In this document: one piece after another, positions 12,101 to 34,461 of the stretch
Layout: every line of letters begins with the position of its first letter
How positions within the stretch are numbered: the stretch's first letter is position 1
Virus record (IMG/VR): IMGVR_UViG_3300045996_002286
Span: 1 to 47,500 of that record
Length of the DNA: 47,500 nt
Strand: one strand, 5' to 3'
Source: a virus
Position numbers and translations under genes: made by a program
Notes under the pieces: generated by a model
Databases searched by the model: none
Seen by the model: the letters and a program-made list of their open reading frames with translations, nothing else
What the model was told of the DNA's origin: nothing

Positions 12101-15100
12101 AGAGTGCCCAAAACAGCACCGGAACCCCCGAAAAGTGCACAGCCGAAGCCGCGCAAGGGTGAACTTGTCACCGCGCCCCGAACCTCTACGGAACTGCCAG
12201 AAGGCGACCTTTCCAGCGTGCCAGAGGCGCAGCTTCAGAACGCGACCGCACGGCTGCGGCGGGAAGGAGCGAGCTACGAAGCGCGGTTGGAGAAGCTGGA
12301 AGCGGAGCTGGATGCCGCCAAGACCGTTGAGCAGGAAACGGCAATCGCGGCCCGCATTGACGCCCTGGAAACGGAATGGGGCGCGCTTGACGCGCAGGTT
12401 GGACGCGCAGAAACGGAACTGCTACGCCGCCGCAAGCCAGACGCCCCCATCACTGAACTTTCCGAAGGTGGCCTGAACGCTCGCGGTTCGAAAGCCCCGC
12501 CCACGCGCCCGCGCATCGAACCGGCTCCGCTCCCTGGCGGCAGCACGAAACGCCTCGCGGAAATCGTCACGGACCTGGGCGCGGCGGTGAACAAGCGCAT
12601 CCAGATCGGCACGCCTTCGCGCGGAGCCAGGGGCACCTATTACCCCGGCAGCACGAAGACCGTTATCCGCAACTCCGGCAACCTCTCCACCACGGCGCAC
12701 GAAATCGGCCACGTTCTGGATGATCGTTTCGGCCTGGTGAAGCCGTGGAACCAGAAGCGGGTCCGTTCCCCCTTTGACGCGGAACTGCTCCCCCACTTCT
12801 CGCAGCACGGCTCTCCGATGTCCACGCTGGCCGGAAAGCGGCTGGAGGCGGTTGCGGAGTTCACCCGAGCGTACATCCTCAACCCTGCCGAAGCAAAAAA
12901 GCAAGCGCCCGCATTTTTCGCCCACTTCGAGCGGGAAGTGCCTGCTGATATCCGTCGCGCGCTCATCTCCTCCGGCGTCGAAATCCGCAAGCTGCAAGGG
13001 ATGCCCGCGACCGACCGCCTGCTGGCGAACGTGCGGATGGAGCCGACGAAGGTTCCCCTGAAGGAGCAGGCGCAGACCGCCGTACGCGGCACCGGCACCG
13101 GCTTTGAGACAACGAAGGTAGACCAACTGCGGGCGATGGTGCTGGATGACCTGGACCCGATCATGCGGGGCATTGCCCGCGCCGAGGAGTTGCAGGGGAA
13201 GCAGGCACCGCTGCCGAGCGACGACCCGGCGCTGCTGATCCGGCTGCACGCGGGTGTAAACGGGAAGATCCAGAACGTCTTTGAGCGGGGGATGGTCGAC
13301 ACTCAGGGCAAGCGCATCGCCAGCCTGGAAGGCGGCTTTGCGAAACTCCTGGAACCGCTGGACCGCTCGACGGAAGCGACGCTGCGGCGAGAACAGGCGG
13401 AAGTGGTCGCCTATATGATCGCCCAACGCACGAAGCACGTTGGACAGAAGGCGAAGGCGGCAGGCGGCTCCCTCTACGCGCCCACCGTGACCGGCGCAGG
13501 CGGTGGCCTGGAACCGGACGTGCTGCAAGCGGAGAAGGTGATCGGGGAACACCTGGCTCGACCCGCCGCGCACCGTGCCCGCATCGAGGCAGCGGCGAAG
13601 CTGTACCGGGAGTGGTCCGACAGCCTGCTGGATTACCTGGCGGAGAGTGGCCGCTACTCGAAGGAAGCCGTGCAGGCGATCCGCGACGAAAACCCGTACT
13701 ACGTGGACCTGCATCGAGTGCTAGGGGAAGATACCTCCGTACCGGGCCGACCGGCAGCCGGAAGCGGCAAGAAGCTGGGCAGCGCCTCACAGGTGATCCA
13801 GCAGTTTAAGGGTAGCGCGAAGACCATCGACAACCCGTATGCGAACCTGATGGAGCAGACGGCACGGGCGATCAAGGAAGCCGACCGGAACGTTGCCATG
13901 CGGAAGTTCCGCGACTTGCTGGTGAACCCGCGCGGCATCCACCAGGGCAAGCCGATTGACCTGTCCGCCATCGGCAACCGCGTGCCCGCCAGTTCCACCG
14001 AGCCGAACCTCATCACGATCTACGTGGACGGCAAGGCCGAGAAGTGGAAGTTTGACGACGGCATCTACCAGGCGCTTCAGAACTGGGGACGCATCCCCAC
14101 CGACTGGTTCCCTACCTACCTCGCCTCATTCACCCGGGCGGCGATCACGCACAGCCCCGCGTTTGCAATCCGCAACTTCATCCGGGACACCATCGAGCGG
14201 AAAGTATCCTCGCCGGTAGACAGCGGCCTGCGGGATCTGGCGGCAGGGGTAACGCAGGTGGGGCGCGATGACCTGCAACTGGCAGGCGGCTCCCAGGCGG
14301 GCCACTACCTGAAGGACAAGCTGAACTACCACCGGGAGCAGACGAAGATCATCCGGAAGCTGGCGCAGGACAAGAACATGCTTGTCGTTGGCCTGCAAGA
14401 CCTGGGGCGGGTGGCGGTGGAGTTGGGGGAGAAGTCGGAACAGGCGAACCGGCTCGCGGAATACAACGCCGCCCTGAAGTACGCGACCGACCGGCTGGGC
14501 TACGGTGAGCGGGACGCGCAACTGTACGCCGCCAACAAGGCGCGGGAACTGATCGACTTCGCGCAGGCCGGGGCGCTGGTGCGGGAAATCAACCGTTACG
14601 TGCCGTTCACGAACGCACAGGTGCAGGGTCTACGGCGCTCGGTGCGGCTGATGAAGGAACGTCCTGCCGTCTTCGTGGCGAAGTGGGCAGGCTACGTGGT
14701 CGCGCCGACGCTGGCCGTCTACGCCTACAACCAGGCGGCGGGCACGATGAAGGAGTACCAGCAGCTACCCACCTATCAGCGCGATTTGTTCTGGAACTTC
14801 AAGGCGGGCGACCGCTGGATCAGCATTCCCAAGCCGCACGAGTTGGGCGTGCTGGCGTCCGGCGTGGAGCGAACCCTGGACCGCGCCTTCGGGAACAAGC
14901 GGGCCTTTGAGGGCTACAGCGGCACCCTGTCGAAGCAGTTGATGCCGGTGGAAGATGTGCCGATCCTGGGCGGTGTTGGGCCCCTGGTGGAAGCAAAGGC
15001 TAACCGGGACCTGTTCCGAGACAGGCCGATCGTACCGCAGCACGAGGCAGGCCGCGCCCTGGAACTGCGGGAAGGCACCAAAAACGCCTCACGCATCGGG

Positions 15101-15484
15101 CAGGCGCTCCAGTCCGTCATCAAGCAGGACGCGCGGAGCATCGACTTCGTAATCCGCGGGATGACGGGCGGGTTGGGCGATCTGACGCTCCGCGCTTCGG
15201 ACATCGGGAAACCAGACAGCCTGCGCGGCACCGGGGAAGCGGCTCTCGGCCTGACGAAGCGTCCTCCGCTCTACAACGCCCGCGATGTGCAGTACGACCT
15301 GAAGCGCGCCGAGGAATTGAACCGTGGGAGCGATCCCCGTGTGAAGAACCTGATCCGGATGCTGCGCCGGGCGGCGGATGCTAAGGGCGCGGAGAAGGCG
15401 CGACGAGAGGAGCAGGCACGAGACTTCGCTACCCGGCTGCGCGGTTCCCTGGAGCGGATGAAGCCGAAGCAGCCTCGGCGCTAG
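9134..15484 (+). CDS. Giant polyvalent ejection protein: M15-type peptidase, HEIGH zinc peptidase motif, LPD38-like C-terminus
   Basis: A 2116-residue protein starting directly after the previous stop. (a) A 16-residue unit, PE[ED]LAR[QE]IA..EGR, occurs at residues 3-18, 165-180 and 192-207. (b) Between copies 1 and 2 lies a domain resembling peptidoglycan M15 peptidases, with candidate zinc ligands H95, D107 and H155 (SYH, GARDF, HVHVAW). (c) A Gly/Ala-rich hydrophobic region follows near residues 430-530. (d) A Pro-rich linker lies near 810-880. (e) A zincin motif HEIGH sits at 1189-1193 with candidate third ligand E1242. (f) The C-terminal part has RYVPFTNAQVQGLRR (about 1817) and a hydrophobic helix (about 1845-1870), typical of LPD38 polyvalent proteins. 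It is probably ejected with the DNA and may cut peptidoglycan or host proteins on entry (inference). Confidence 0.7.
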   Translation: MLTPEELARQIAEQEGRLKPAAPKPVDAAMARARQVGQARAVSPVAPVVDDDDWDAALNRIAAKHGVTPGSGVRTRKQQDDLIRGGRTLAENSYHLSTDRPRRGARDFGGKPENMLAFAREVDELYGKDLAELIHTPYRAPKNPVTRKAHYDHVHVAWGRPYAKTPEELAREIAETEGRAGKRAAAPAEEISPEDLARQIATTEGRARPTSTPATGLTPAMANRGVPMLPPIPGAGMAPGGPPAKGRMQTPREEVRIIPPEQAGPPRPTIPDPAGPRAYNPALRQPTRARQGWEHLGRGLQQALAPIATGRSDEQLTGWRRDVAAGKAPAFSILSARPEVAARQVQELSQLQNTLAQQVIQPRISRSGKLIETSTGEMRHAPDFRAAFQGMNAAAVRKELAKRGVKLTPFQQQNLAAALEFEARRPFAERDRAGNIALDVAVNVGAAAVGGKAAQSLAGPLSRIGNPIVQAAARLGTEGAVSGGIQQPLTRKLVDPNATPQDLAWEGFVGIGAGGFGGGALGAGGEALSRFLARPRLGAPQIPPRTAPLRPEATRTSAPPRPEGSLPVDRGTAGRFVSPGKGKPAARVPTLETATGSMRLTPGVEVEAPRLSGKVRFKVERVDEKGIVHLTAPNGTKAQAVKTELRAPETYAPVGPYRATGEKITPKPKAADPERLGLIKDEWRQVQAALDDLDAKAPTLTLKEWKDQAYFRSPSRGVMKWGSEYDRPLTRQEAHMLNQRRSRMLSDENLQEMPLAVAGEPPKTRLQMEFLDRDWAEGRASQHRDLVEQALADGKTVPPQVLADYPDLASKAPPAAPPPAPKARVAKPKTVAEPPPAATPTPKPVQPPAPTPRPALPPKPKPAPTPRVEAAPPAATGPGTIDKPTLDQLIGRVSTRGKLPRAELRKQLGQLTKNVEGDYDLTPQQVATLESMLKTAKYDQPTEDLIRAGWKTPAPGSSTEAFVRYRKEERARAAAAKAEALPQPAAAVGRVPKTAPEPPKSAQPKPRKGELVTAPRTSTELPEGDLSSVPEAQLQNATARLRREGASYEARLEKLEAELDAAKTVEQETAIAARIDALETEWGALDAQVGRAETELLRRRKPDAPITELSEGGLNARGSKAPPTRPRIEPAPLPGGSTKRLAEIVTDLGAAVNKRIQIGTPSRGARGTYYPGSTKTVIRNSGNLSTTAHEIGHVLDDRFGLVKPWNQKRVRSPFDAELLPHFSQHGSPMSTLAGKRLEAVAEFTRAYILNPAEAKKQAPAFFAHFEREVPADIRRALISSGVEIRKLQGMPATDRLLANVRMEPTKVPLKEQAQTAVRGTGTGFETTKVDQLRAMVLDDLDPIMRGIARAEELQGKQAPLPSDDPALLIRLHAGVNGKIQNVFERGMVDTQGKRIASLEGGFAKLLEPLDRSTEATLRREQAEVVAYMIAQRTKHVGQKAKAAGGSLYAPTVTGAGGGLEPDVLQAEKVIGEHLARPAAHRARIEAAAKLYREWSDSLLDYLAESGRYSKEAVQAIRDENPYYVDLHRVLGEDTSVPGRPAAGSGKKLGSASQVIQQFKGSAKTIDNPYANLMEQTARAIKEADRNVAMRKFRDLLVNPRGIHQGKPIDLSAIGNRVPASSTEPNLITIYVDGKAEKWKFDDGIYQALQNWGRIPTDWFPTYLASFTRAAITHSPAFAIRNFIRDTIERKVSSPVDSGLRDLAAGVTQVGRDDLQLAGGSQAGHYLKDKLNYHREQTKIIRKLAQDKNMLVVGLQDLGRVAVELGEKSEQANRLAEYNAALKYATDRLGYGERDAQLYAANKARELIDFAQAGALVREINRYVPFTNAQVQGLRRSVRLMKERPAVFVAKWAGYVVAPTLAVYAYNQAAGTMKEYQQLPTYQRDLFWNFKAGDRWISIPKPHELGVLASGVERTLDRAFGNKRAFEGYSGTLSKQLMPVEDVPILGGVGPLVEAKANRDLFRDRPIVPQHEAGRALELREGTKNASRIGQALQSVIKQDARSIDFVIRGMTGGLGDLTLRASDIGKPDSLRGTGEAALGLTKRPPLYNARDVQYDLKRAEELNRGSDPRVKNLIRMLRRAADAKGAEKARREEQARDFATRLRGSLERMKPKQPRR

Positions 15485-15747: not shown

Positions 15748-16845
15748 ATGCTACCGAAGCCCCGCAACGAAACCCTGGATTACCTGCGGGGCCTGCTGGC
15801 CCTCTCGGTGATGGCGTACCACTACCTTTCCTGGGCCGGGGTAATGCTACCGTGGCCGCTGAACCAGACCTTGCAGCGCCTCGGCATCTACGGGGTTTCC
15901 GCGTTCTACGTCCTCTCGGGCGCGGCGCTGGGACTGGTATACGCCAACCGGGAAGTAAATCGCCCATTCCTGCGCGAATTTGCTGCTAAGCGGTTCTGGC
16001 GCATCGTGCCCCTCTTCTGGCTGGCGTCCTTCCTGGCGATCCTACCGCCCCTGTGGGTCGCCGCCCTGCGCCACAACCCGGCGCTCGCCCCTGATCCGCT
16101 ACGGGTGCTGCTGAACTTCTCCCTGCTGTTCGCCTGGGTGCAGCCACACGCAGCGCTGACCGTGGGCGGGTGGAGCATCGGAAACGAGCTGGTGTTCTAC
16201 AGCCTTTTTCCGTTCCTCCTGCTGGCGCTCCGTTCGCGCGGCCGGTGGCTGGTAGCGGTGGGCATGGCGGCGCTGACCGCGTTTTTCGCGTTCCGGGTCC
16301 TCTCGCCCGCCGTGCCGCTGCCGGAGCAGTGGGTCGCGTACGTGCATCCGCTGAACCAGATCCATTTCTTCGCGGGCGGCGTGGGGATCGGGCTGTTCAC
16401 GCGGGCGCACCCGAAACTCCCTGCCCTCCCGCTTCAGGCGCTGGCCCTGGCGACGGCGCTGCTGTTCGTCTCCTGGCCTGCGGCGACCCCTGCCGCGCTT
16501 GTCTCTGGTTGGGCGCGGCTGCTGTTCTCCCTGCTGGCGCTGGCGGCGTGCTTCGCGGCGGCAACCTGGGGCCGGCCACTTCCGGGTTGGCCTGCCAGGG
16601 CGCTCCGGTGGCTGGGCGGGGTCTCCTATTCCCTGTATCTGCTCCATCCGCTGGTGTGGTACTGGCTGACGGTCCCGCTGCGCAGGCTGCACTCGCCGCT
16701 GCTCATCCTGGCGCTGGCCGTACCGGTGTCCCTGGCGCTGGCGCATCTCTGCTACCAACGGCTGGAACTGCCCGCGCAGCGTTGGGGGCGGAGGCGGCTG
16801 GAGGAGAAACCGGACGCAGCGGCGCAAAGAGCGCCATGCTCGTAA
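15748..16845 (+). CDS. Acyltransferase 3 family membrane protein
   Basis: A 365-residue integral membrane protein with about ten hydrophobic segments. The N-terminus carries the family signature DYLRGLLALSVMAYHYLSW (R14 and the putative catalytic H25), followed by YGVSAFYVLSG. Further typical stretches are KRFWRIVPLFWLA and SYSLYLLHPLVWYWL. Members of this family transfer acyl groups, usually acetyl, to lipopolysaccharide, peptidoglycan or other surface sugars. Phage copies are known to change host antigens in lysogens and block superinfection. The gene lies between the tail module and the integrase, the usual place for such cargo. Its substrate cannot be read from the sequence. Confidence 0.85.
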   Translation: MLPKPRNETLDYLRGLLALSVMAYHYLSWAGVMLPWPLNQTLQRLGIYGVSAFYVLSGAALGLVYANREVNRPFLREFAAKRFWRIVPLFWLASFLAILPPLWVAALRHNPALAPDPLRVLLNFSLLFAWVQPHAALTVGGWSIGNELVFYSLFPFLLLALRSRGRWLVAVGMAALTAFFAFRVLSPAVPLPEQWVAYVHPLNQIHFFAGGVGIGLFTRAHPKLPALPLQALALATALLFVSWPAATPAALVSGWARLLFSLLALAACFAAATWGRPLPGWPARALRWLGGVSYSLYLLHPLVWYWLTVPLRRLHSPLLILALAVPVSLALAHLCYQRLELPAQRWGRRRLEEKPDAAAQRAPCS

Positions 16846-17036
16846 AACTCCCCTGGCGTTGCGAGGTGTGCGGCTCTCGCCTGAAGTGGCCGGAGGTGCG
16901 CCAGGGGCTGTTCCCGCGCACTGAACGCACCTATCCGTTCGAGACGATGAAAGGCGGGGAGAGGAAAGAACGCCCGGTGCGGTGGCTGTGCGTCCGCTGT
17001 GAGCGACGCGCCGTACGCCACCGCGAGAACGATTAG
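16836..17036 (+). CDS. Zinc-ribbon-like small protein
   Basis: A 66-residue basic protein whose ATG overlaps the end of the acyltransferase gene by 10 bases. Two CxxC pairs (CEVC at residues 9-12 and CVRC near residue 52) about 40 residues apart suggest one zinc-binding ribbon. It is the last gene before a strong terminator and its stop codon touches the terminator stem. No function is known. It is likely co-expressed with the acyltransferase. Confidence 0.6.
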   Translation: MLVKLPWRCEVCGSRLKWPEVRQGLFPRTERTYPFETMKGGERKERPVRWLCVRCERRAVRHREND

Positions 17037-17072
17037 CCCCCTGCTGGTACGCGCGTACCAGCAGGGGGCTTT
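17036..17072 (+). terminator. Rho-independent terminator, perfect 15-bp stem
   Basis: Left arm 17036-17050 (GCCCCCTGCTGGTAC) and right arm 17055-17069 are perfect reverse complements around the loop GCGC, followed by TTT. It closes the accessory plus-strand unit and also separates it from the convergent minus-strand genes. The run of T is short. Confidence 0.85.
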
Positions 17073-17084
17073 GCTGCGTACGGG

Positions 17085-17264
17085 CTAGTTGCCTAGGCGA
17101 CGCAGCTTCTCTCGCAGCTCTGACAGGACTGGATTATCTTCCGCCATACCCTGTGCTTCGGCCTTTCGCAGCACGTTCTGCATAAACTCCCGCTGTCGCT
17201 TGCGCCCCTCGGCGTCTGAAGCGATCCATGTGTCAGGGCTCTTCCCTGCTTGCGTCTCCCTCAT
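17085..17264 (-). CDS. Small charged helical protein
   Basis: A 59-residue protein. I chose the ATG at 17264 because a GGAGG lies eight bases upstream; a start seven codons further up has no clear binding site. It is rich in Arg, Lys, Glu and Gln and probably helical (REFMQNVLRKAEAQG, LSELREKLRRLG). It is the last gene of the minus-strand unit and ends 13 bases from the plus-strand terminator. Function unknown. Confidence 0.5.
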   Translation of the reverse strand: MRETQAGKSPDTWIASDAEGRKRQREFMQNVLRKAEAQGMAEDNPVLSELREKLRRLGN

Positions 17265-17411
17265 CCCCTCACCCTCCATTCCCACCCACAGAATTGTCTC
17301 TTCTGTCGCCCAAATCAGCGCGCCACCGCTCCCGCCTGCCCATCGCCTGGCTGTTCCTCGACCCGATCCGGGGCGGCAGATACGATTGTGGCGCAGGGAA
17401 GGGGCACAGAA

Positions 17412-17630
17412 CTAGGCGGCCACAGCAACCTCTTCCTGCGGCAGTTCTTCCCGCACCCTCGCGGCAATCCACAACTCCTCGTATGCGCAGCACTCCACGT
17501 CGTTATCGTGCCAGGCGTAGTTTCGCAAGTCGTTCAGTTCTACGCCTACCCCCGCCGCGCAATGCGGGCAGACCTCACGGGCGCGGCTTTCGAGCAGTTC
17601 CGCCAGTAATGCTTTCTGTCGCTCGTTCAT
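17412..17630 (-). CDS. Small protein with CxxC motif
   Basis: A 72-residue protein with CPHC near residues 20-23 and a second pair of adjacent cysteines (ECCAYEELW) about 25 residues later, so a small zinc-binding fold is possible. The ATG at 17630 is preceded by AGGA and a G-rich stretch. It overlaps the gene upstream by 56 bases in another frame, which lowers confidence that both are translated. About 147 bases without a clear gene follow before the next minus-strand gene. Confidence 0.5.
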   Translation of the reverse strand: MNERQKALLAELLESRAREVCPHCAAGVGVELNDLRNYAWHDNDVECCAYEELWIAARVREELPQEEVAVAA

Positions 17631-17778
17631 CCCCCACCATCCTTTCCTCATCCTCGCTCCAAGCCAGACACCACCCCACCTTCCACGCGTGCGCCTTCGC
17701 CCCGGTCCAGACGCACTCCCCAAGCGCCAACCCCATGCGATACGCCGCTGCGCCTGCGAGCTGGTAGCGGTTCATCAT
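17575..17778 (-). CDS. Small hypothetical protein
   Basis: A 67-residue protein starting at tandem ATGs (17778, 17775) preceded by GGGGGAT. It has a Gly/Ala-rich helical N-terminus (YQLAGAAAYRMGLALGE) and several Trp residues, then a charged tail. It begins 21 bases after the end of the 149-residue gene, as in an operon. Its end overlaps the CxxC protein gene by 56 bases. Function unknown. Confidence 0.4.
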   Translation of the reverse strand: MMNRYQLAGAAAYRMGLALGECVWTGAKAHAWKVGWCLAWSEDEERMVGDERATESITGGTARKPRP

Positions 17779-17799
17779 CAGCGATCCCCCAAGAACATT

Positions 17800-18249
17800 C
17801 TATTTTGTGCCAGCAGAGGTTACGGACTGATCAGCGCGTGCGGGATTGGGCCACTCCAGCGGGAACCACACGCAGCCGCCGCAATCATCCCCACTGTCTG
17901 TTTCGGGAAACACTGGGGCCTTATTTTCAGCCTGGTACTCCTCTTCCTCTGCCTCGTTTAGGCGGTAATCCGCATCAATGGCATCGCGGATTTCTTCTAG
18001 TTGCTCTTTCCAGTCCTCGCCATCTATGTCCCAACTGCTATCAATCCGCACGACGTAGAAGTTCGGATAGCGCGCTGTCAGGGAAATACCGACGAGTTGC
18101 TTCCCGTCACCCAGGATTCGGCTCACCACCGCGCCACGCTCTTCTGCGGGCATCCCCCGCATATTAATTGCTCTCGTCCTTTCGAAGTGTACGCGTAGCT
18201 CCTCAGTGGTCGCTAACGGTACTTCGACTCGCTCCAAGATCGCTTCCAT
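17800..18249 (-). CDS. Acidic hypothetical protein
   Basis: A 149-residue protein starting at 18249 with AAAGGACGG upstream. The middle is mixed alpha/beta (VGISLTARYPNFYVVRIDSSW), followed by a very acidic helix (LNEAEEEEYQ) and a tail with two cysteines (DDCGGCVW). It lies downstream of the integrase on the same strand with an inverted repeat between them. No family recognised. Confidence 0.55.
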   Translation of the reverse strand: MEAILERVEVPLATTEELRVHFERTRAINMRGMPAEERGAVVSRILGDGKQLVGISLTARYPNFYVVRIDSSWDIDGEDWKEQLEEIRDAIDADYRLNEAEEEEYQAENKAPVFPETDSGDDCGGCVWFPLEWPNPARADQSVTSAGTK

Positions 18250-18294
18250 CCCCTCACCGTCCTTTCTACAGAACTACCTCCCGCAGCCCCGGAA

Positions 18295-18329
18295 CCCACC
18301 AGAGAACACTTCACCCGACCTCTGGTGGG
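18295..18329 (-). terminator. Inverted repeat after integrase, possible terminator
   Basis: CCCACCAGAG (18295-18304) and CTCTGGTGGG (18320-18329) form a perfect 10-bp stem with a 15-base loop, just past the integrase stop. Only two T follow on the minus strand, so termination may be weak or Rho-aided. It might instead be a binding site. Confidence 0.45.
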
Positions 18330-18336
18330 CAAGAAA

Positions 18337-19422
18337 TCAGTTGCCGGTCCCCTTCCGCCTGCGAGGACTGCGTAGCGGTGGCCGTCGCTTCACCGGCTGC
18401 TGGTCATTCCGGGGCTTCTGCGGCCCCTTCCGCTGGCCGGACATCCGTTCGCCCAACTCCTCCATCGCCCGCTCCATGGCGCCATAGTCGGTGTGGACGT
18501 ACTTCCAGGTGGTCGCGATATTCGCGTGCCCGAGGATCTGCCGCACCGTCTCGGGATCAACCCCCATCCGCAGGAGATACGTCGCGCACCCGTGACGCAG
18601 AGCGTGCGGGCGGATGTGCTCAGCAGACAGGCCCGCCGCTTCCACCACCTGCCGGAGCGCAGAGTACAGCGCATAGTCGCCCATCCCGTGGCAGGCCCGG
18701 TCAATCATCAGTAGCGGAGTTTCGCGCTTGAAGCGCTTACAGCGGGCATCGCGGACCTTGATCCACGCCTCGAATTTCTCGCGCGCGAACGCCGGAACCG
18801 GAATGGTCCGCGTCTCGCCTCCCTTTGAGGAGCGAATGCGGAGGTGCGCTCCCTTGTCGGTGCGGATGTAATCCGCCTTCCGCACGCTGATGATATCCAC
18901 CCGGCGCAGGCCCAGCACCAGTCCCAAGGTGATGACCATCTCGGCCCGCCAGTGCAGGTATTCGCGATATTCCGGGTCGGCGGTTTCCCTGCCGACCTTT
19001 GCGGCAGCCTTCACCAGCTTTTCCGCCTGCTCACCGTTCACCCAGGAGACGCGTTCCTTGTCGAGACGCGGCTGGTTCACCTCTTTGATCGGCGGCAGGT
19101 CCCGGTAGCCGTGGGCGGCAGCGTACTGCCAGAACGAGTTGAGCGCCGCGAAATGGAGGCGAATGGTGCGCGGACGACACCCTTCCCCTTCCCTGCCGAC
19201 CCTCTCCAACTGGAGGTAGTCTTTGTAATCTTGCAGCAGGCGCAGGTTTAGCGGCTTTTCTCCGCGCCACTGAATAAAAGAATTGATACGTTGTCGGTAC
19301 GCGGCGATAGTCAGAGGAGAGCGGTCGAGGGAGTGTAAATGGCTCAGGTAATCCGGTAGCAGTTGCTTCATTCGGGCCTCCGTCATCTTTGAGGAAGGGT
19401 CGAGGTATTCTTGTTCTTCCAT
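18337..19422 (-). CDS. int: Tyrosine recombinase, phage integrase
   Basis: A 361-residue protein of the usual integrase length. Residues 18-105 form a SAM-like core-binding domain (PLTIAAYRQRINSFI), and 130-315 the catalytic domain. All six catalytic positions are present: R173 (GLRRVDI), K200 (SSKGGETR), H273 and R276 (PHALRH), H299 (LGHAN) and the nucleophile Y308 (WKYVHTD). The last 40 residues are very basic. It would integrate and excise the phage at attP/attB. No convincing Shine-Dalgarno precedes the ATG at 19422. The repressor lies upstream on the same strand, so both may share one lysogenic transcript. No excisionase was identified. Confidence 0.95.
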   Translation of the reverse strand: MEEQEYLDPSSKMTEARMKQLLPDYLSHLHSLDRSPLTIAAYRQRINSFIQWRGEKPLNLRLLQDYKDYLQLERVGREGEGCRPRTIRLHFAALNSFWQYAAAHGYRDLPPIKEVNQPRLDKERVSWVNGEQAEKLVKAAAKVGRETADPEYREYLHWRAEMVITLGLVLGLRRVDIISVRKADYIRTDKGAHLRIRSSKGGETRTIPVPAFAREKFEAWIKVRDARCKRFKRETPLLMIDRACHGMGDYALYSALRQVVEAAGLSAEHIRPHALRHGCATYLLRMGVDPETVRQILGHANIATTWKYVHTDYGAMERAMEELGERMSGQRKGPQKPRNDQQPVKRRPPLRSPRRRKGTGN

Positions 19423-19730
19423 AAGATACGGACGCTTTCAATCAGACAAAGAGAGGATCACTCCCTTTTCTTTTGGATTTTTACTAGCCAAGATACCGTG
19501 TTTTTGCCTAGCCAATTCAGGCCCTCTACCTCCGATAACGGCGCGTTCTTGAGCACGTACGCCACCAGATAATCAGGGGCCTCGGAGCGTTACTGAGGAA
19601 GAACCGTAGTTTTTCCTTGATCTTCCGCCCGTGCTATCCGTCTTTTGGTGGTTTCTGTGGGGAATGCCGTTCGTCGGAGGCCCCAACCTGGGCCTGCGCC
19701 AAACAATAGGCACCTTCGCGCGTACCGGCC
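19423..19730. other. Gene-free region between integrase and repressor; candidate attP or integrase arm sites
   Basis: This 308-base stretch holds no convincing gene. Near the integrase start two direct repeats of CTAGCCAA (19484-19491 and 19508-19515), each preceded by TTTTT, lie 24 bases apart in an AT-rich patch. Further on, AGGCCC/GGGCCT (19678-19695) forms a small hairpin. Location beside int makes it the best place for attP, but the core cannot be defined without a host junction. Confidence 0.4.
19478..19515. repeat. Two direct repeats TTTTT-N(1-2)-CTAGCCAA
   Basis: Copy 1 spans 19478-19491 and copy 2 spans 19501-19515. They lie 56-93 bases upstream of the integrase start in locally AT-rich DNA. 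Spacing of 24 bases, just over two helical turns, is compatible with cooperative binding by an integrase or an excisionase. Function inferred. Confidence 0.4.
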
Positions 19731-20030
19731 TCAAGCCTGCACGAAGGCGTAGGTCACACCCAGGCGGTACTCCGCTCGGGACTGAACCAGCGATAGCAGC
19801 CGGTCGGCTACTTCCTTGCGCTGTTCGTGGGTCCACTCCATCGCCTTGCCCAGCGCATCGGCAAATTCGATGATGTGATCGCTGCTAGGCGGAAACCCCT
19901 TCATCATCCGCCGTACGGTCATGTGGCTAAGACGCCGCTCCGACAGCGCCTCTATGCTGTTGGGTGACTGACGGCTATCCGCCAGCACCCTCCTTACCTC
20001 GTCCCCGAACTGCTCCGAGTAGCCAATCAT
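19731..20030 (-). CDS. Phage repressor, HTH protein
   Basis: A 99-residue protein with an XRE-like helix-turn-helix in about residues 24-60 (SIEALSERRLSHMTVRRMMKG, then HIIEFADALG). The ATG at 20030 has GGAGG seven bases upstream. It is transcribed away from the Cro-like gene, and its promoter spacer contains operator 1, so it probably controls its own synthesis. It lacks a RecA-cleavable peptidase domain, so induction must work some other way, for example through an antirepressor. The gene lies upstream of the integrase on the same strand, consistent with a lysogenic transcript. Confidence 0.75.
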   Translation of the reverse strand: MIGYSEQFGDEVRRVLADSRQSPNSIEALSERRLSHMTVRRMMKGFPPSSDHIIEFADALGKAMEWTHEQRKEVADRLLSLVQSRAEYRLGVTYAFVQA

Positions 20031-20049
20031 CGAAATACCTCCGAAGCCG

Positions 20050-20079
20050 AGTATAGCAACAAGTTGTTGCTAGTAGCAA
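20050..20079 (-). promoter_or_regulatory. Candidate repressor promoter
   Basis: On the minus strand TTGCTA (20079-20074) and TATACT (20055-20050) are separated by 18 bases, a good sigma-70-like pair. The spacer is almost wholly occupied by operator 1. Transcription would begin near 20043, about 13 bases before the repressor start. Confidence 0.6.
20054..20072. promoter_or_regulatory. Operator 1, 19-bp perfect palindrome
   Basis: TAGCAACAAGTTGTTGCTA is a perfect palindrome around a central G at 20063. It contains CAACA-AGT-TGTTG and lies inside the repressor promoter. Confidence 0.75.
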
Positions 20080-20114
20080 GGATTGGTGGAATTTTTCTTC
20101 CTTAAACCCTATCA

Positions 20115-20127
20115 CAACATTTTGTTG
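20115..20127. promoter_or_regulatory. Operator 2
   Basis: CAACA-TTT-TGTTG has the same half-sites and 3-base spacer as operator 1, centred at 20121. It overlaps the candidate -35 region of the rightward promoter. Confidence 0.7.
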
Positions 20128-20148
20128 ACCGTCCGAATGTGATATGGT
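20120..20148 (+). promoter_or_regulatory. Candidate early (rightward) promoter
   Basis: TATGGT (20143-20148) preceded by TG at 20140-20141 looks like an extended -10 element. TTTTGT (20120-20125) lies 17 bases upstream as a poor -35. An alternative -35, TTGACC (20125-20130), would need a weaker -10 at 20148. The region drives the early operon and is flanked by operators 2 and 3. Confidence 0.45.
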
Positions 20149-20165
20149 AAGCTACTCCTGTGCAA

Positions 20166-20178
20166 CAACAAGTTGTTA
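20166..20178. promoter_or_regulatory. Operator 3
   Basis: CAACA-AGT-TGTTA matches operator 1 except for the last base, centred at 20172. It lies just downstream of the expected early transcript start and ahead of the Cro-like gene's ribosome binding site (GAGGG, 20183-20187). Confidence 0.7.
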
Positions 20179-20192
20179 AGCCGAGGGAAAAG

Positions 20193-20435
20193 ATGAGCGA
20201 ACCCCTGGACCTGAACGCCCGAATGGACTTCCGCCTGGAGCTGATGAAGCACGGCCTCAAGCAGGCCGATGTTGCGCAGCTAATGACCGGGATGGATGAG
20301 CCGAAGATGAGCCGCATCCTCAACGGCAGGATGGCTCCCCCGGATGGGTTCGCCGCCGACTTTGCCGCAGCAGTAGCGCGGCTACGACCGAACCCCACCC
20401 CCGACGCCGCCGAGCTGGCCGGAGCCGTGGCATGA
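20193..20435 (+). CDS. Cro-like HTH protein
   Basis: An 80-residue protein starting at ATG 20193 with GAGGG five bases upstream; a GTG 33 bases earlier would place the coding start inside operator 3 and lacks a binding site. An XRE-type helix-turn-helix covers about residues 13-50 (MKHGLKQADVAQLM, then KMSRILNGR). As first gene of the rightward early operon, opposite the repressor, it is the natural counter-regulator that binds the same operators. Its C-terminus is Ala/Pro-rich. It ends in an ATGA overlap with the next gene. Confidence 0.7.
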   Translation: MSEPLDLNARMDFRLELMKHGLKQADVAQLMTGMDEPKMSRILNGRMAPPDGFAADFAAAVARLRPNPTPDAAELAGAVA

Positions 20436-20674
20436 GCGAGCAGCTAGACCCACTAACCGCCGAGGAGTTGACGGACTTGATCGGCAGGCACGCAAAAGCG
20501 ATGTTAGCTCGCTGCATGGAAGGGCCAGACCGAGCGGAAGAGATCGCCTTCCGTGCGCCGGACGGACGGAGGATGGTCCTCTCCGTCTGCGCTGGCTCCT
20601 ACGCGGAGGAAGACCACGACGCCATCATTTCCGACCCTGACGGCATTGACGACGACGAGCCGGTAGTCCCCTAA
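20432..20674 (+). CDS. Acidic small early protein
   Basis: An 80-residue acidic protein coupled to the Cro-like gene by ATGA. It has a short helical N-terminus (LTAEELTDLIGRHAKAMLARC), a beta-like middle and a very acidic tail (DPDGIDDDEP). Directly after it comes an inverted repeat (20681-20710). Function unknown. Confidence 0.6.
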   Translation: MSEQLDPLTAEELTDLIGRHAKAMLARCMEGPDRAEEIAFRAPDGRRMVLSVCAGSYAEEDHDAIISDPDGIDDDEPVVP

Positions 20675-20680
20675 CGCAAA

Positions 20681-20710
20681 GATGCCCCACCGGTGGCACG
20701 GCAGGGCATC
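20681..20710 (+). other. Inverted repeat in early leader
   Basis: GATGCCC (20681-20687) and GGGCATC (20704-20710) pair perfectly, with an inner 10-base palindrome CCACCGGTGG at 20687-20696. No T run follows, so it is not a typical terminator. It lies 32 bases ahead of the next gene start and may be an RNA processing or control element. Confidence 0.4.
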
Positions 20711-20741
20711 AGCGACGACCACGAGAGGATGTGTCTCCCGA

Positions 20742-21170
20742 ATGTCTACCGAGAGTTTACCACAAACCCTGTCAGGCCAGAAAGCCGACGAGGATTTCAC
20801 CGCCCCCTGCGGCTGCCAGGTGCGCCGCGAAGGCAGCGGTTACACCTATCGCAACCCGGAAAGCCTCTGCCGGGCAGGGGCACGGATCGCTGCCCGCGTG
20901 ATGCCGCCCTGCAACGACGGCGCAGACTTCGTTCAGCGACGGTTCAACCACCACATTCAGCGGCAGTATCCTAGTCCGCAAGAACTGCTGAGCGAGCTAC
21001 CGGAAGTCGCAAAGGAGTTCCTCAAGGGAGGTAAGCACGACGGGCCCTGCACGAACGCCCCAGGCGGCTCCTCTGAAGGCGGCCCGTGCTGGGACCATAT
21101 CGACACAAGAATTCAACGACAGGAACGATTGGAAGCGGCTATTCGCAAGGCAGAAGGAGGCTCCAAGTGA
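20742..21170 (+). CDS. Hypothetical early protein
   Basis: A 142-residue protein. I prefer ATG 20742 because the open frame upstream covers the inverted repeat; the ribosome binding site is weak either way. It contains CGCQVRREGSGYTYRNPESLC near residues 24-44, a Cys/His-containing stretch, and later HDGPCTNAPGG. The C-terminus is a charged helix. The stop is coupled to the next gene through GTGA. No family recognised. Confidence 0.5.
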   Translation: MSTESLPQTLSGQKADEDFTAPCGCQVRREGSGYTYRNPESLCRAGARIAARVMPPCNDGADFVQRRFNHHIQRQYPSPQELLSELPEVAKEFLKGGKHDGPCTNAPGGSSEGGPCWDHIDTRIQRQERLEAAIRKAEGGSK

Positions 21171-21637
21171 GCGCACTCCTGACCCCCGACGCCCCCAGCG
21201 TCACCCCTGAACTCACCCTGCCGATCCGCTTCCACTTCGGCCAGTCGTTCCTCACGCCGCAGGAGTGCGCGGAGCACACCTCGGCGGTGGAGTTAGCCCG
21301 CCACTTCCACCCCTGCCCCGACTGCGATGGCGGCAAGCACAAGCTGAACCGCTGCCGCAAGTGCGAGGGGCGCGGCTTTGCGATGCGCCCCGCCGTGGCC
21401 CGTAAGTGGGGACTGCCCGCCGTGCTGGCGCTTGATGAGCATGAGACGGACCCGAACGTGCAGGCGCACCGGGCACGCGCAGCCTACGAGGAAGACCCCC
21501 GCCCCCTCTGCCCCACCCTGGAGGAGCTATACACCGACTTTGGCGCGGACGTGCAGGAAGGCGGCAACCCGAGCGTGGCGGCGTTGGAGCAGGCCGTGGC
21601 GGCGCACCAAGCGGAGTGCGGGGAGTGTGGGCGATGA
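21167..21637 (+). CDS. Zinc-finger protein with DnaJ-like CxxCxGxG motif
   Basis: A 156-residue protein starting at GTG 21167 with AAGGAGG six bases upstream. Residues about 47-68 carry two close cysteine pairs (CPDCDGG, CRKCEGRG) like the DnaJ zinc finger. A third pair (CGEC) ends the protein. Such fingers bind DNA, RNA or protein. The exact role is unknown. It sits in the run of small early genes before the replication genes. Confidence 0.6.
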   Translation: MSALLTPDAPSVTPELTLPIRFHFGQSFLTPQECAEHTSAVELARHFHPCPDCDGGKHKLNRCRKCEGRGFAMRPAVARKWGLPAVLALDEHETDPNVQAHRARAAYEEDPRPLCPTLEELYTDFGADVQEGGNPSVAALEQAVAAHQAECGECGR

Positions 21638-22128
21638 GCAAGCACACACCTGAACCGTACCCGCATCAGATCGGGCGCGTCCGTGCGATGATCGCTGGAA
21701 CCGGTGAATACGACGGACTGACCAGTCAAGACCGCACCGCCATTCGCACCGTGTTTGGCGAGCGCGTGGCGTTCCTGGATGCCTGCACGGGTGACCCGTT
21801 CGCAACGCAGCTTGATTGGCTTCAGTCGCATCTGCACGACCTGCGGCGCGACAAGGAGCCGGATCGCTGGGGTGATCCTGAAGCCGGTTGGGCGTGCGTG
21901 CAAGCCTTGGAAAAGCTCCATGCGGACCTGTCGGCTCTGTGCGCCCAGGCTGGGGCCTTCGAGCCTGATACGCGCCTTGCTGACCTACTTGCAGCCGCCA
22001 AGGGCATCGCGCCCGGCGTGATGTGCATCAAGGAGCAGATTACGGGCACCGCCTGCGGGAAGCCTAACTGCCCGGCGTGCGACCTGCACAAGGCAATTGC
22101 CCGCGCCGAAAGCGAGGCCACCCCATGA
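21634..22128 (+). CDS. Hypothetical early protein
   Basis: A 164-residue protein starting at ATG 21634, coupled to the preceding stop by ATGA. Mostly helical, with two Cys-rich patches near the C-terminus (GVMCIKEQ, then CGKPNCPAC) that could bind a metal. Ends in ATGA with the next gene. No family recognised. Confidence 0.55.
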   Translation: MSKHTPEPYPHQIGRVRAMIAGTGEYDGLTSQDRTAIRTVFGERVAFLDACTGDPFATQLDWLQSHLHDLRRDKEPDRWGDPEAGWACVQALEKLHADLSALCAQAGAFEPDTRLADLLAAAKGIAPGVMCIKEQITGTACGKPNCPACDLHKAIARAESEATP

Positions 22129-22547
22129 GCGAGCTAGCCCTACTGGAGCAGGACGCCCGCGAGACGCAAGAGGCGATGCTGAACACGCCGGTGGGCATCA
22201 TCGACCGGGCGTTAGAGCGGCTGGCGAAGCCGAACCACTGGCGCAAGGACGAATACGCCACTCGCAGCGATGGGAGTCGTTGCTCGTCGGATGACCCGGA
22301 CGCCGTGAGCTACTGCCTACTAGGGGCGATAGGTTCCGATGCATGCGACACCCCCTGCGACCCCTACCTCGCCCTAAAATTCGTCCGTCACGCAATCGCG
22401 CAACACGAAGGACGCGCGCCTTTAGAGGTCGTCATCGACGAGTTCAACGACGACCCAGACACCAATTACGAAAAGGTTGTCGCTGTCCTGAACCGCGCTC
22501 GCGAGTTGGCCGTAGCGGCAGAGAGCGAGGCAAGCGATGGCCGCTAG
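22125..22547 (+). CDS. DUF6197-like protein
   Basis: A 140-residue protein starting at the coupled ATG 22125. The pattern DPDAVSYCLLGAIG in the middle and EFNDDPDTNYEKVVAVLNRA at the C-terminus resembles the DUF6197 group found in phages and GC-rich bacteria, whose function is unknown. Assignment is from memory of the pattern and needs a profile search. Confidence 0.55.
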   Translation: MSELALLEQDARETQEAMLNTPVGIIDRALERLAKPNHWRKDEYATRSDGSRCSSDDPDAVSYCLLGAIGSDACDTPCDPYLALKFVRHAIAQHEGRAPLEVVIDEFNDDPDTNYEKVVAVLNRARELAVAAESEASDGR

Positions 22548-22896
22548 CACCTACGCGAACGGCTGCCGCGTGCGCCGCACTGATGAGCCGGTGAAGCAGA
22601 ACCGTCGCTATCGCTACCCGGCAGAGCGACCCCTGGAACCTACGCCGGTACGCCCCGGACACTTGCGGCGGGATGCGCTGCTTCGGGCGGCCCAGGTGTT
22701 GCGCCACGAGGCCAGCACCGGCGCCGACTTGCGGCACACCAGCATCCTGCTGGAAGCGGCACAGGAGCCGCTTCTCGCCCGCGCTTTCGCCCGGCTGGCC
22801 TCGCTGGACGACCTGCTGCAAGAAGACGAGGCCCTGATCGACGCGGTAGCGCAGGCGGTGCAGGTGCGCCTGACCGCTGCGGAAGGGGGCATCTGA
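22537..22896 (+). CDS. Hypothetical helical protein
   Basis: A 119-residue protein overlapping the preceding gene by 11 bases. Basic N-terminus (about 40 residues), then leucine- and alanine-rich helices (LLRAAQVLRHEA, LLEAAQEPLLARAFARLASLDDLL). Function unknown. Confidence 0.5.
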   Translation: MAASTYANGCRVRRTDEPVKQNRRYRYPAERPLEPTPVRPGHLRRDALLRAAQVLRHEASTGADLRHTSILLEAAQEPLLARAFARLASLDDLLQEDEALIDAVAQAVQVRLTAAEGGI

Positions 22897-23261
22897 TGGA
22901 TACGTCACGACCCCCGAAGTTCTGGGACATCGAAAACGCTCCCGCCACCCCGGAAGGACTTGCTGCGCTGGTGGGGCCGGTCAGCCGCCTGAGCCAGGCC
23001 GCGCAGGAGCCGTGGGACCGGGCGCATGTCCTGCTGACGGCTGCCGAGATGGCCCTGAAGCAACTAGAGGGCCGCGAAGAGGATTGCCGCGCCCAGGAAG
23101 CCCGCCTTTCCGAGCGGGAAGCCGCGCACGATGCCCGCGTACTACGCGACCACTACCACCGACGCCGGGCCTGGAAGCGCATCCAGGCGAATGCCCGAGC
23201 GGTGGCGTGGGTGGCGGTAGTGCTGGTGGGCGCGTTCTTCGGCGCGTGGTTGGTGCGGTAG
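22896..23261 (+). CDS. Coiled-coil protein with C-terminal membrane anchor
   Basis: A 121-residue protein. Residues about 40-80 form a Glu/Arg-rich coiled coil, and the last 20 residues are a transmembrane helix (AWVAVVLVGAFFGAWLV) with one terminal Arg, a tail-anchored layout. It overlaps the previous stop by one base. It might tether an early complex to the membrane (inference). No family recognised. Confidence 0.55.
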   Translation: MDTSRPPKFWDIENAPATPEGLAALVGPVSRLSQAAQEPWDRAHVLLTAAEMALKQLEGREEDCRAQEARLSEREAAHDARVLRDHYHRRRAWKRIQANARAVAWVAVVLVGAFFGAWLVR

Positions 23262-23302
23262 CGAGCGAGAGTAGCCCCAGCGGGGCGGGAGGAGCGACGA
23301 GC

Positions 23303-23602
23303 ATGGAACGGCTGTTCAGTGACCTGATCGCCGGGCACGCCAGGGGCATTACCAACCTGCGGTTGACGCAGGTGATCCGGGAAGCCATCAAGGCGGCGCT
23401 CAAGCACAACAAGAAGTCCGAGGTGACCCTGAAGATCGGGTTTTCCCCGGAGAAGGGACGGCTGATCGTCTCCTTCGCGGAAGCATCGAAGCTTCCCGCT
23501 GAGGAGCCGGATCGGATGATGTATTTCGTGGACGACGACGGCAATCCGGTGGAGCAGAACCCCCACCAGACGGCCCTCGACCTGAAGGAATTGGGAGGCT
23601 GA
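23303..23602 (+). CDS. Hypothetical protein upstream of DUF2303
   Basis: A 99-residue protein starting at ATG 23303 with GGAGGA nine bases upstream. The longer open frame upstream shadows the preceding gene. Mixed alpha/beta: helical N-terminus (LRLTQVIREAIKAAL), then strands (EVTLKIGFSPEKGRLIVSF) and a conserved-looking C-terminus (MMYFVDDDGNPV). It is followed one base later by DUF2303, a common pairing of small genes before recombination functions. Function unknown. Confidence 0.6.
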   Translation: MERLFSDLIAGHARGITNLRLTQVIREAIKAALKHNKKSEVTLKIGFSPEKGRLIVSFAEASKLPAEEPDRMMYFVDDDGNPVEQNPHQTALDLKELGG

Positions 23603-23603
23603 C

Positions 23604-24404
23604 GTGGGAGACACAACGACGGATTTCGGAGCTGCTTATCAGGCGGGAATGGTAGCCGCTACCGGACAGGTGCATCAGCAGAACGAGTTCTCTGCGCCGT
23701 ACATGGTTGTGCCGCAAGGTCACGCCATCAAAGAGGTGCCGTTCGAGCGAGAAGCGCCGCTGCGGATTGAGGAAAGCCCGCGCTTCGCGGATGTGGCGTC
23801 CTTTGCTGCCTACGTGAACCGCTACAAGACGGATGCCACGCTACTGTTCGCAGATCGCGGCGCAGGCAGGATTGAAGCACAACTGGACTACCATCTGCCC
23901 GGCGCTCCCAGCCACAACACGCATTCCGCCAAGCTGCCGGTGCAGTTCAGCGAGGAGTTCACCCGCTGGAATGGCGCCTGCGGAGTGCGCCTCTCGCAAG
24001 AACAGCTAGCACTACTGCTCGATGAGCGGATTGATGACATCCGCGACCCAGCGGGAGCCGAGGTGCTGTCTACCATCCAGAACTTCGGCCTGCGTCGCAC
24101 GGCCACGCTGAAGAGCGCCATCAACCTCAACAACAACGCGGTGCAGCTCAACTACGAGGAAACGGATGCGGGCCGGGGTGGCGGTGCGGTACTGGTGCCT
24201 ACGTCGTTCGTGCTGGGGCTGCCGATCTACGAGGGCGGCAAAGCCTACAAGGTCGAGGTGCGGCTCCGCTACGCGGTGCGCGACGGCGCGGTGACGTTCA
24301 CCCTTACGATCCTGAAGCGCACCGCGCTGCTGAAGGACGCCTTTGAAGCGGAGTTGGCGAGCGCCGAGAAGGCGACCGGCCTGAAGGCGATGCTGGTTCT
24401 GTAA
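23604..24404 (+). CDS. DUF2303 (YfdQ-like) family protein
   Basis: A 266-residue protein starting at GTG 23604 with GGAGG upstream. It matches the DUF2303 layout: an N-terminal segment, then SFAAYVNRYKTDATLLFAD, the motif LDYHLPGA, then a helical middle with LLDERIDDI and a beta-rich C-terminus. The family is widespread in phages and prophages, usually near single-strand annealing genes. Its biochemical function is not known. Here it lies directly upstream of the tRNA-like element and the Rad52-like gene. Confidence 0.75.
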   Translation: MGDTTTDFGAAYQAGMVAATGQVHQQNEFSAPYMVVPQGHAIKEVPFEREAPLRIEESPRFADVASFAAYVNRYKTDATLLFADRGAGRIEAQLDYHLPGAPSHNTHSAKLPVQFSEEFTRWNGACGVRLSQEQLALLLDERIDDIRDPAGAEVLSTIQNFGLRRTATLKSAINLNNNAVQLNYEETDAGRGGGAVLVPTSFVLGLPIYEGGKAYKVEVRLRYAVRDGAVTFTLTILKRTALLKDAFEAELASAEKATGLKAMLVL

Positions 24405-24458
24405 GACCTGGATGGTTTGCCAGGAAGCCCTGCCGTGCGGCAACGCGGTGGGGCCTTG

Positions 24459-24535
24459 CGGAACGTGGCGCAACGGGAGCGCGGCGCGGATCTGGCAGTG
24501 CGCGCAGGTGTCCGGTTCAAGTCCGGCCGTTCCGT
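24459..24535 (+). tRNA. tRNA-like element, anticodon not assignable (possible pseudo-tRNA)
   Basis: A cloverleaf can be drawn. The acceptor arms CGGAACG (24459-24465) and CGTTCCG (24528-24534) pair perfectly. The D arm is GCGC/GCGC with loop AACGGGA (24468-24482), and TGGCGCAACGG fits the A-box. The T arm has loop TTCAAGT (24516-24522), and GGTTCAAGTCC fits the B-box, with 4 of 5 stem pairs. The anticodon stem GCGCG/CGCGC (24484-24488, 24501-24505) closes a 12-base loop instead of 7, so no standard anticodon can be read. No CCA is encoded. It lies 28 bases upstream of the Rad52-like gene. It may be decayed, or a tRNA mimic. Confidence 0.5.
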
Positions 24536-24562
24536 TTGGTTCAGAGAGACGAGGAGAAGCAG

Positions 24563-25705
24563 ATGTCAGCACAGATCAATCCTGACGAGTGGCGCGAGAT
24601 GCTGATTGCATTTGCGCAGCCATTCGACACGATGGACTTCTTGCCCAAGGCGGCGCGGGGAGATACCGCGCTGGCTCTGGCATTCATTGACGCGCGGGAC
24701 GTGCAGCGCCGCCTGAACGCAGTGTGCGGCAGTGAGTGGTCGTTCGACTTCGACGTTTTGACCCCAGACTGCAAGAAGGTGAAGGGTAAGTTGACGGTAC
24801 GCGGCGTAACCCGCTGCGATGCCGGGGAAGCCAGTCAGGAAGACGAGCCGCTAAAGAGTGCGGTCAGTGACGCGCTGAAGCGGGCGGCAGTTCACTTTGG
24901 CATTGGGCAGTACCTCTACTACCTGCCGCAGGTGTGGGCTGATTACGACAGCCAGAAGCGGAAGTGGAAGGGGACGCCCCGGATCGACCCGCGCGACATC
25001 TCCAAAGCCGTTGCTATCGTGGTGCAGCAACGGCTCGCAGAACGACCGCCTGCCAGTGAGCCTGTGCGCCCCCGCCAGGAACCCGCTCCGGAGAGCCACG
25101 GGGACCGGCAGGCAGTAGCGACCGCGCCGGAGCCTCGGCAGCCGGTGGCGGCGAGTGGTGAGCGCGGCAATGGTTTCCGCCCACCGGCTGCCTCTGGCCC
25201 GCAGGGGCAAGCGTTCCTCGGCAACGCGCGAACTTCAGCTCAAGGGGCCGGGGCGGGTGCGCCGAGCGGGGCTCCTGCCGAGACGAGCCTCGCCCGCTTC
25301 AACCGGATGTGGGAGGACGCCAAGCGAGAGAAGGAAGGGCGCGTCCCGTTCGCGCTCCGCGTGCTGGGACGAAAGCCTGCCAGCGAGGCCGATTGGAAAC
25401 TCGTCGCGGATGACCTGGCGGACTGGAAGGACGCGCTGAAGGCCGCCATCCAGGCGTTCAAGGAAACCGGCGTCCTCCCACATCCGGTTGAAGCGGGCGG
25501 CGTGATGCGCGTCGAGATGTCCCGCGTGCTGGGCGTGCCGGTGGAGAGCCGCAAGGAGTGCACTGCCGCCGAGCTACGCCGCTTCGCACAGGCGTGCAAG
25601 CAATCCACGCTGCCGCCCGAAGTGCACGAACCGGAGATCGTAGACGACAACCCGTTCACCGACGAGCCGGAGCACCCCCGCTCGGCATTGGCCCAAGGTC
25701 TGTAG
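24563..25705 (+). CDS. Rad52-like single-strand annealing protein
   Basis: A 380-residue protein starting at ATG 24563 with GAGGAG six bases upstream. Residues about 40-130 match the phage Rad52/22 fold: RRLNAVCGSEWSFDFDVL, GVTRCDAGE, and LKSAVSDALKRAAVHFGIGQYLYYL. These proteins anneal complementary single strands in recombination-dependent replication. Residues 165-245 are Pro/Gln/Gly-rich and disordered. The C-terminus ends with a short acidic tail (DDNPFTDEPEH), which may contact partners, as SSB tails do (inference). It is followed by the helicase gene. Confidence 0.8.
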   Translation: MSAQINPDEWREMLIAFAQPFDTMDFLPKAARGDTALALAFIDARDVQRRLNAVCGSEWSFDFDVLTPDCKKVKGKLTVRGVTRCDAGEASQEDEPLKSAVSDALKRAAVHFGIGQYLYYLPQVWADYDSQKRKWKGTPRIDPRDISKAVAIVVQQRLAERPPASEPVRPRQEPAPESHGDRQAVATAPEPRQPVAASGERGNGFRPPAASGPQGQAFLGNARTSAQGAGAGAPSGAPAETSLARFNRMWEDAKREKEGRVPFALRVLGRKPASEADWKLVADDLADWKDALKAAIQAFKETGVLPHPVEAGGVMRVEMSRVLGVPVESRKECTAAELRRFAQACKQSTLPPEVHEPEIVDDNPFTDEPEHPRSALAQGL

Positions 25706-31894: not shown

Positions 31895-32248
31895 ATGCTA
31901 CAGGCCACCGATCAACGCCTGCTCCGAGCAGCAGGGCGCTTCCAGTGGAGCCACGAGCGGCTACGGATCGCGGAAGAGGTGATCCTGAAGCAGAACAAGC
32001 TCAAGGACGTAGTTGCCTCGCTGGGGTTGAACTACGATGCCGCCAAGGACATGCTGAAGGAAGCTCGGAAGCAACTCCGCAAGCAGGCCCAGGACGAATG
32101 CGAGCCGGAAGCGTACGGGCCAGAGGCGCGGCTGGAAGAGGACCCAGACGGGCTGCGGCAGCACGCGATTGCCTTGCAGATCGCGATGGATGGGGAGCCG
32201 GACCTGGAGACGTGCGAGGAAGCGGTGTTGTGCGTGGGAGCGTTTTAG
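31895..32248 (+). CDS. Putative HTH regulator, last gene of the early operon
   Basis: A 117-residue protein. Residues about 25-62 look like a helix-turn-helix of sigma-4 or transposase-like type (EVILKQNKLKDVVASLGL, then DAAKDMLKEARKQ). The C-terminus is acidic. Its place just before two tandem terminators, at the early/late boundary, suggests a late-gene activator or antiterminator, as in many phages. This is inference from position; no family was recognised. Confidence 0.5.
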   Translation: MLQATDQRLLRAAGRFQWSHERLRIAEEVILKQNKLKDVVASLGLNYDAAKDMLKEARKQLRKQAQDECEPEAYGPEARLEEDPDGLRQHAIALQIAMDGEPDLETCEEAVLCVGAF

Positions 32249-34062: not shown

Positions 34063-34461
34063 ATGAGCGATCCGCCCCAAACACCCGCCTGGCACACCCA
34101 GAGCTTCTGGACCGGCATGGTGAAGCTTTGCCTGGAAGGTGCGGCCCTGGCGACCGGCATCTCCGCGATCCCCGCTGAAGTGCCGCCGAAGGTCTACAGC
34201 GCCTTGGTCATCGCTGCCATCCTGAAGTTCGCGGGCAGCCTGTTGGGACAGCTTGCCGCCTTCTTCGTGCGCGAGGGCGTAAGCAGCGTGGACAAGCGAG
34301 CCGATGTCGCGGCCACCGTCGCAGTGGAGCTTGCCGAACGGGTAGCGCAGAACGAGAGCGGCTTCACCGCCGACCTGATCCGCGAGGGAAACGCGCTGCC
34401 TTCAACCCCGCCCCCTGGCTCCCAGGCGGAGGATCGGACGGGTAGGGGAGAACGGGCGTGA
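34063..34461 (+). CDS. Holin candidate, two membrane spans
   Basis: A 132-residue protein with two hydrophobic helices (about residues 17-37 and 44-70) and a charged, partly coiled C-terminus. This resembles two-span holins, and the endolysin gene lies about 850 bases downstream. The start lies 23 bases from the reverse promoter. No family was recognised, so this is an inference from topology and position. Confidence 0.5.
   Translation: MSDPPQTPAWHTQSFWTGMVKLCLEGAALATGISAIPAEVPPKVYSALVIAAILKFAGSLLGQLAAFFVREGVSSVDKRADVAATVAVELAERVAQNESGFTADLIREGNALPSTPPPGSQAEDRTGRGERA

Follow-up and report, generated by a model that had tools for sequence, protein, structure and literature searches.

In the OR region of phage lambda, three matched operators lie between the divergent repressor and Cro genes, one of them at the repressor promoter, and the site centres are about 23–24 bp apart. 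Three-site switch regions without this geometry are known from phi11, TP901-1 and phi13. The cI-cro region of the Staphylococcus phage phi11 contains three homologous 15-bp operators, possibly overlapping the promoters, and divided use of these sites by the two proteins has been reported (PMC3991615). The CI-MOR switch of TP901-1 and phi13 contains the palindromic sites OR, OL and OD for one repressor (PMC8516035).

We analyzed a region of this general kind in a 47.5-kb viral record (the window, 47,500 nucleotides in all). It resembles phi11 in that its divergent repressor genes are separated by three homologous operators, whereas the operator sequence, the regulators and the host differ. With TP901-1 and phi13 it shares three palindromic sites in the switch region and an XRE repressor fold, here a predicted one; no sequence relation was seen, and the partner here is a candidate Cro-like protein of 80 aa. 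The region is very probably the immunity (lysis–lysogeny) region of an uncultured temperate phage, in which a 99-aa XRE-type repressor reads three operators.

Operators and putative promoters of the switch region

The features of the region, in window coordinates, are listed below.

18337..19422, minus strand: tyrosine integrase, 361 aa (Pfam Phage_integrase, E = 3.5e-27), downstream of the repressor gene on the same strand
19731..20030, minus strand: lysogeny repressor candidate, 99 aa, XRE-type HTH, predicted fold
20050..20079, minus strand: putative repressor promoter, TTGCTA (20079–20074), 18 bp, TATACT (20055–20050), with a TG extension; 9/12 in the promoter scan
20057..20069, no strand: operator 1, CAACAAGTTGTTG, in the spacer of the leftward promoter
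20115..20127, no strand: operator 2, CAACATTTTGTTG; its final 3 bases are the first 3 of the rightward −35 TTGACC
20125..20153, plus strand: rightward early promoter candidate, TTGACC (20125–20130), 17 bp, TAAGCT (20148–20153)
20166..20178, no strand: operator 3, CAACAAGTTGTTA; one mismatch, perfect 11-bp core
20193..20435, plus strand: Cro-like regulator, 80 aa, predicted XRE-type HTH; ATG start, with GAGGG 5 bases upstream

The motif CAACA-N3-TGTTG occurs in only two exact copies in the whole 47.5-kb record, operators 1 and 2, and all matches with at most one mismatch are confined to one 122-bp stretch. The site centres (20063, 20121 and 20172, at intervals of 58 and 51 bp) are those of the original prediction, which had also placed the sites between the repressor and the Cro-like gene, as the two reading frames confirm. 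It had assigned the same form to all three sites, from which operator 3 (CAACA-AGT-TGTTA) departs by one base; this operator also has an overlapping one-mismatch register at 20163–20175 and lies within the leader of the rightward transcript, upstream of the ribosome-binding site. Operator 1 forms the centre of TAGCAACAAGTTGTTGCTA (20054–20072), a perfect 19-bp palindrome, and is more symmetric than operators 2 and 3.

The set of three sites is beyond chance. In a motif-blind test that accepted any 5-bp dyad with a gap of 0–8 and asked for two or more perfect copies within 162 bp, no case turned up among 4,000 dinucleotide shuffles or among about 1,170 other stretches of this phage. An Rfam search of 17000–25000 returned sub-threshold matches only, none of them in the switch.

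On the leftward side, TTGCTA-18-TATACT encloses 20057–20069, so that site 1 fills the spacer of the putative repressor promoter, as had been predicted. The leftward leader, read from the sequence, would be very short, with GGAGG beginning at about the expected transcript start and the ATG at 20030. The rightward promoter candidate was read by eye and is absent from the output of the strict promoter scan; an alternative reading uses an extended −10, TGATATGGT, at 20140–20148. Whichever reading is taken, the −35 area is overlapped by site 2, and site 3 begins a few bases past the start point. The predicted placement of these two sites thus holds, whereas the promoter itself is weaker than had been implied. 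Judged by consensus, the leftward promoter is probably a good one and the rightward promoter a weak one.

Two small regulators of predicted XRE-type fold

The AlphaFold model of the 99-aa protein (mean pLDDT 83.6) has helices at residues 6–19, 23–29, 36–43, 50–64 and 68–82 and a low-confidence C-terminal end. It aligned with XRE folds at VIA-align Z scores of 9.2–7.2, including P22 c2 (8.3), the N-domain of TP901-1 CI (8.0) and 434 Cro (7.8). The protein matched a PHROG transcriptional repressor family (E = 0.0066) and had no significant match in Pfam or NCBIfam, so its fold assignment depends on a model built from two sequences. Foldseek gave high probabilities with E-values above 0.05, and the fold call therefore leans on the whole pattern of matches. 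For the 80-aa protein, matches to Pfam HTH_31 (E = 1.2e-4, under the curated cut-off) and to a PHROG HTH family (E = 6e-5) were found, and its model (mean pLDDT 78.6) aligned with XRE folds at Z scores of up to 9.2. Both regulators are accordingly predicted to have XRE-type HTH folds.

No S24/LexA-type self-cleavage domain was found in the 99-aa protein with Pfam or NCBIfam, and neither regulator, at 99 and 80 aa, has room for a LexA-type domain, in agreement with the earlier view of small, apparently non-cleavable regulators. A six-frame search for HExxH gave no candidate for an ImmA-like protease among the small early genes, and no antirepressor was recognized among the genes scanned.

The record encodes, in addition to the integrase, a terminase, portal, capsid, helicase, annealing protein and endolysin, which together place the region in a temperate phage. 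As in a divergent XRE repressor/Cro switch, the two genes with predicted HTH_XRE folds are divergent, dyads lie at both putative promoters and an integrase gene is nearby.

Elsewhere in the record, an acyltransferase-3 gene (15748–16845, E = 3.7e-27) between the tail genes and the integrase region is possibly surface-modifying cargo. A 2,116-aa reading frame among the structural genes (9134–15484) contains a HEIGH zinc-protease-like motif near 12698. Two small genes without known function lie at 31895–32245 and 34458–34808, the latter encoding a DUF3307 protein.

Conservation of the sites in a diverged relative

A search with the integrase recovered L003, the only relative obtained, which is part of a 64.8-kb viral contig. 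Single-protein searches of viral contigs with the repressor and the Cro-like protein, and of the phage collection with the repressor, yielded no relatives, and alignment-based searches returned the L003 record again and nothing further. A single Chloroflexi integrase match from a profile scan of genome contigs (24%) was too remote to be used. The relative is clearly diverged (identities of 88% for the integrase, 40% for the repressor and 32% for the Cro-like protein) and has the same gene order of integrase, repressor and Cro-like gene, followed by a cysteine-rich protein common to both phages.

No good CAACA-N3-TGTTG site is present in the relative. With the gap left free, CAACA-N4-TGTTG sites emerged at 4358–4371 (no mismatch), 4286–4299 (two mismatches) and 4238–4251 (one mismatch), at intervals of 72 and 48 bp. 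Because this form appeared only in that way, the significance test spanned all gaps from 0 to 8; neither the 5,000 shuffles nor the roughly 2,260 control stretches included a case that reached this site total. When the three TTGTTG half-sites were used as anchors, the left arms fitted CAACA at 12 of 15 positions with a gap of 4 and at no more than 7 of 15 with any other gap, and the chance of a 12/15 fit at three random anchors over gaps 0–10 is 0.004. The left arm of the second site, AAAAA, fits poorly. The sites are located in the repressor promoter area, at the rightward −35 TTGACG (TTGTTGACG) and in the leader, and a rightward promoter candidate, TTGACG-17-TACAAC, lies at the matching place (read by eye and unreported by the strict scan). 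In both phages, the site at the repressor promoter matches the motif best and is the most symmetric.

The original prediction had called for the sites to be sought in relatives that keep both regulators. In this one relative three sites are kept, slightly re-spaced, so that two clearly diverged phages with both regulators share them. The recognition segment SHxTVRxMM is partly kept between the two repressors, and the corresponding segment of the Cro-like proteins has diverged.

The spacer between integrase and repressor (19534–19702) contains two non-coding islands that are nearly identical in the relative, of 26 bp (CGATAACGGCGCGTTCTTGAGCACGT) and about 55 bp (GGTGGTTTCTGTGGGGAATGCCGTTCGTCGGAGGCCCCAACCTGGGCCTGCGCCA), and the rest of the spacer has diverged. 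A conserved small gene was ruled out here, as reading frames are not kept between the two phages. The islands, which had no match in plasmids, may represent the attachment core together with arm sites for the integrase. In integration-dependent immunity of the mycobacteriophage BPs type, attP lies within the repressor gene; the islands of the window phage fall between the integrase and the repressor and not inside the repressor gene.

The same motif beside XRE regulators in unrelated phages

A scan of viral sequences for paired N3 sites returned 44 stretches, most of them inside reading frames, and most look like chance occurrences or repeats rather than regulatory sites. In an unrelated prophage (L047, IMGVR_UViG_2854482947_000001), three perfect CAACA-N3-TGTTG copies are found between divergent XRE genes, a 176-aa repressor and a 63-aa Cro-like gene, with one site in the leader. 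An operator arm lies in TTGACA there, as TGTTGACA supplies the −35. Its sites differ from those of the window phage in being 18 and 36 bp apart, and its regulators are not close in sequence. Other unrelated phages have copies beside XRE repressors as well: four perfect ones each in L009 and L033, and three perfect plus two near copies in L044. The clustering of perfect copies by XRE repressors in unrelated phages marks this motif type as an XRE operator that recurs, as does the sharing of bases between operator and −35 in TGTTGAC. The arrays of three to five sites are at 6056–6411 in L009, 989–1333 in L033, 3518–3693 in L044 and 7732–7798 in L047.

Proposed mechanism and alternatives

We propose that the 99-aa XRE-type protein is the lysogeny repressor and would bind as a dimer to the three palindromes. 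At sites 2 and 3 it would cover the rightward −35 area and the initial transcribed region, keeping the Cro-like and lytic genes off. Occupancy of site 1, within the repressor's own promoter, would stop repressor synthesis; this site could be filled either by abundant repressor or, in lytic growth, by the Cro-like protein. Because the repressor has no S24/LexA-type domain, induction would take a route other than self-cleavage. That the repressor's recognition segment is partly kept in the relative and the Cro-like one is not, while the operator arms are kept, favors the repressor reading all three sites.

The lambda parallel drawn earlier stands for three operators between two regulators, and fails for the spacing, the activating site and the location of the best site. 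Intervals of 58/51 bp here and 72/48 bp in the relative, compared to about 23–24 bp in lambda, do not suit lambda-type contacts between neighboring dimers. None of the sites is positioned for activation of the repressor promoter, as the centre of site 2 is about 42 bp further upstream than the leftward −35 (20074–20079). The 99-aa repressor, in contrast to that of lambda, is without a cleavable domain. Site 1 being the best site in both phages is unlike the lambda-like order, in which the rightward promoter is filled first and the repressor's own promoter last. A best site at this position would agree with tight autoregulation, or with a Cro-like protein that takes this site first. The parallel therefore goes little beyond the number of sites.

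The two proteins may instead divide look-alike sites that are not interchangeable, with the repressor at sites 2 and 3 and the Cro-like protein at site 1. There is a precedent in phi11, where CI binds O1 and O2 and Cro binds only O3 (PMC3991615), and the position of the best, most symmetric site at the repressor promoter in both phages agrees with such a division. We nevertheless consider it rather unlikely, as the gap shifts from 3 to 4 at all three sites together, a change most simply explained by a single dimer that reads all of them. That the Cro-like protein is the main user of the sites, with the 99-aa protein an accessory regulator, for example of excision, and not the lysogeny repressor, is improbable: the protein has no confident family match and adjoins the integrase, but its predicted XRE fold matches P22 c2, TP901-1 CI and 434 Cro, and it is its recognition segment, along with the operator arms, that is partly kept in the relative, whereas the Cro-like segment has diverged. 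Chance repeats, low-complexity AT-rich sequence or leader RNA elements could be suspected from the composition of the intergenic region (43% GC compared to about 64% for the phage) and from site 3 being in the leader, but are highly improbable, as dinucleotide-preserving shuffles never yield the set and two of the three sites lie outside the leader.

Returning to a repressor that reads all three sites, operators and repressor may evolve together, with the three arms kept and the half-site gap changing from 3 to 4 in concert, in a switch wired towards repressor shut-off and not lambda-like activation; we advance this tentatively and regard it as possible but on balance doubtful.

Significance

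The control region is real and well supported. It is of a common kind, with a design that is already well known, and the phage group to which it belongs has been poorly sampled. It provides a testable operator set for an uncultured temperate phage group without a close record in the phage collection. Together, the window phage and its relative form a small natural experiment on the joint change of operator spacing and repressor. If true, a concerted change of the gap could give a different immunity with the same half-site.
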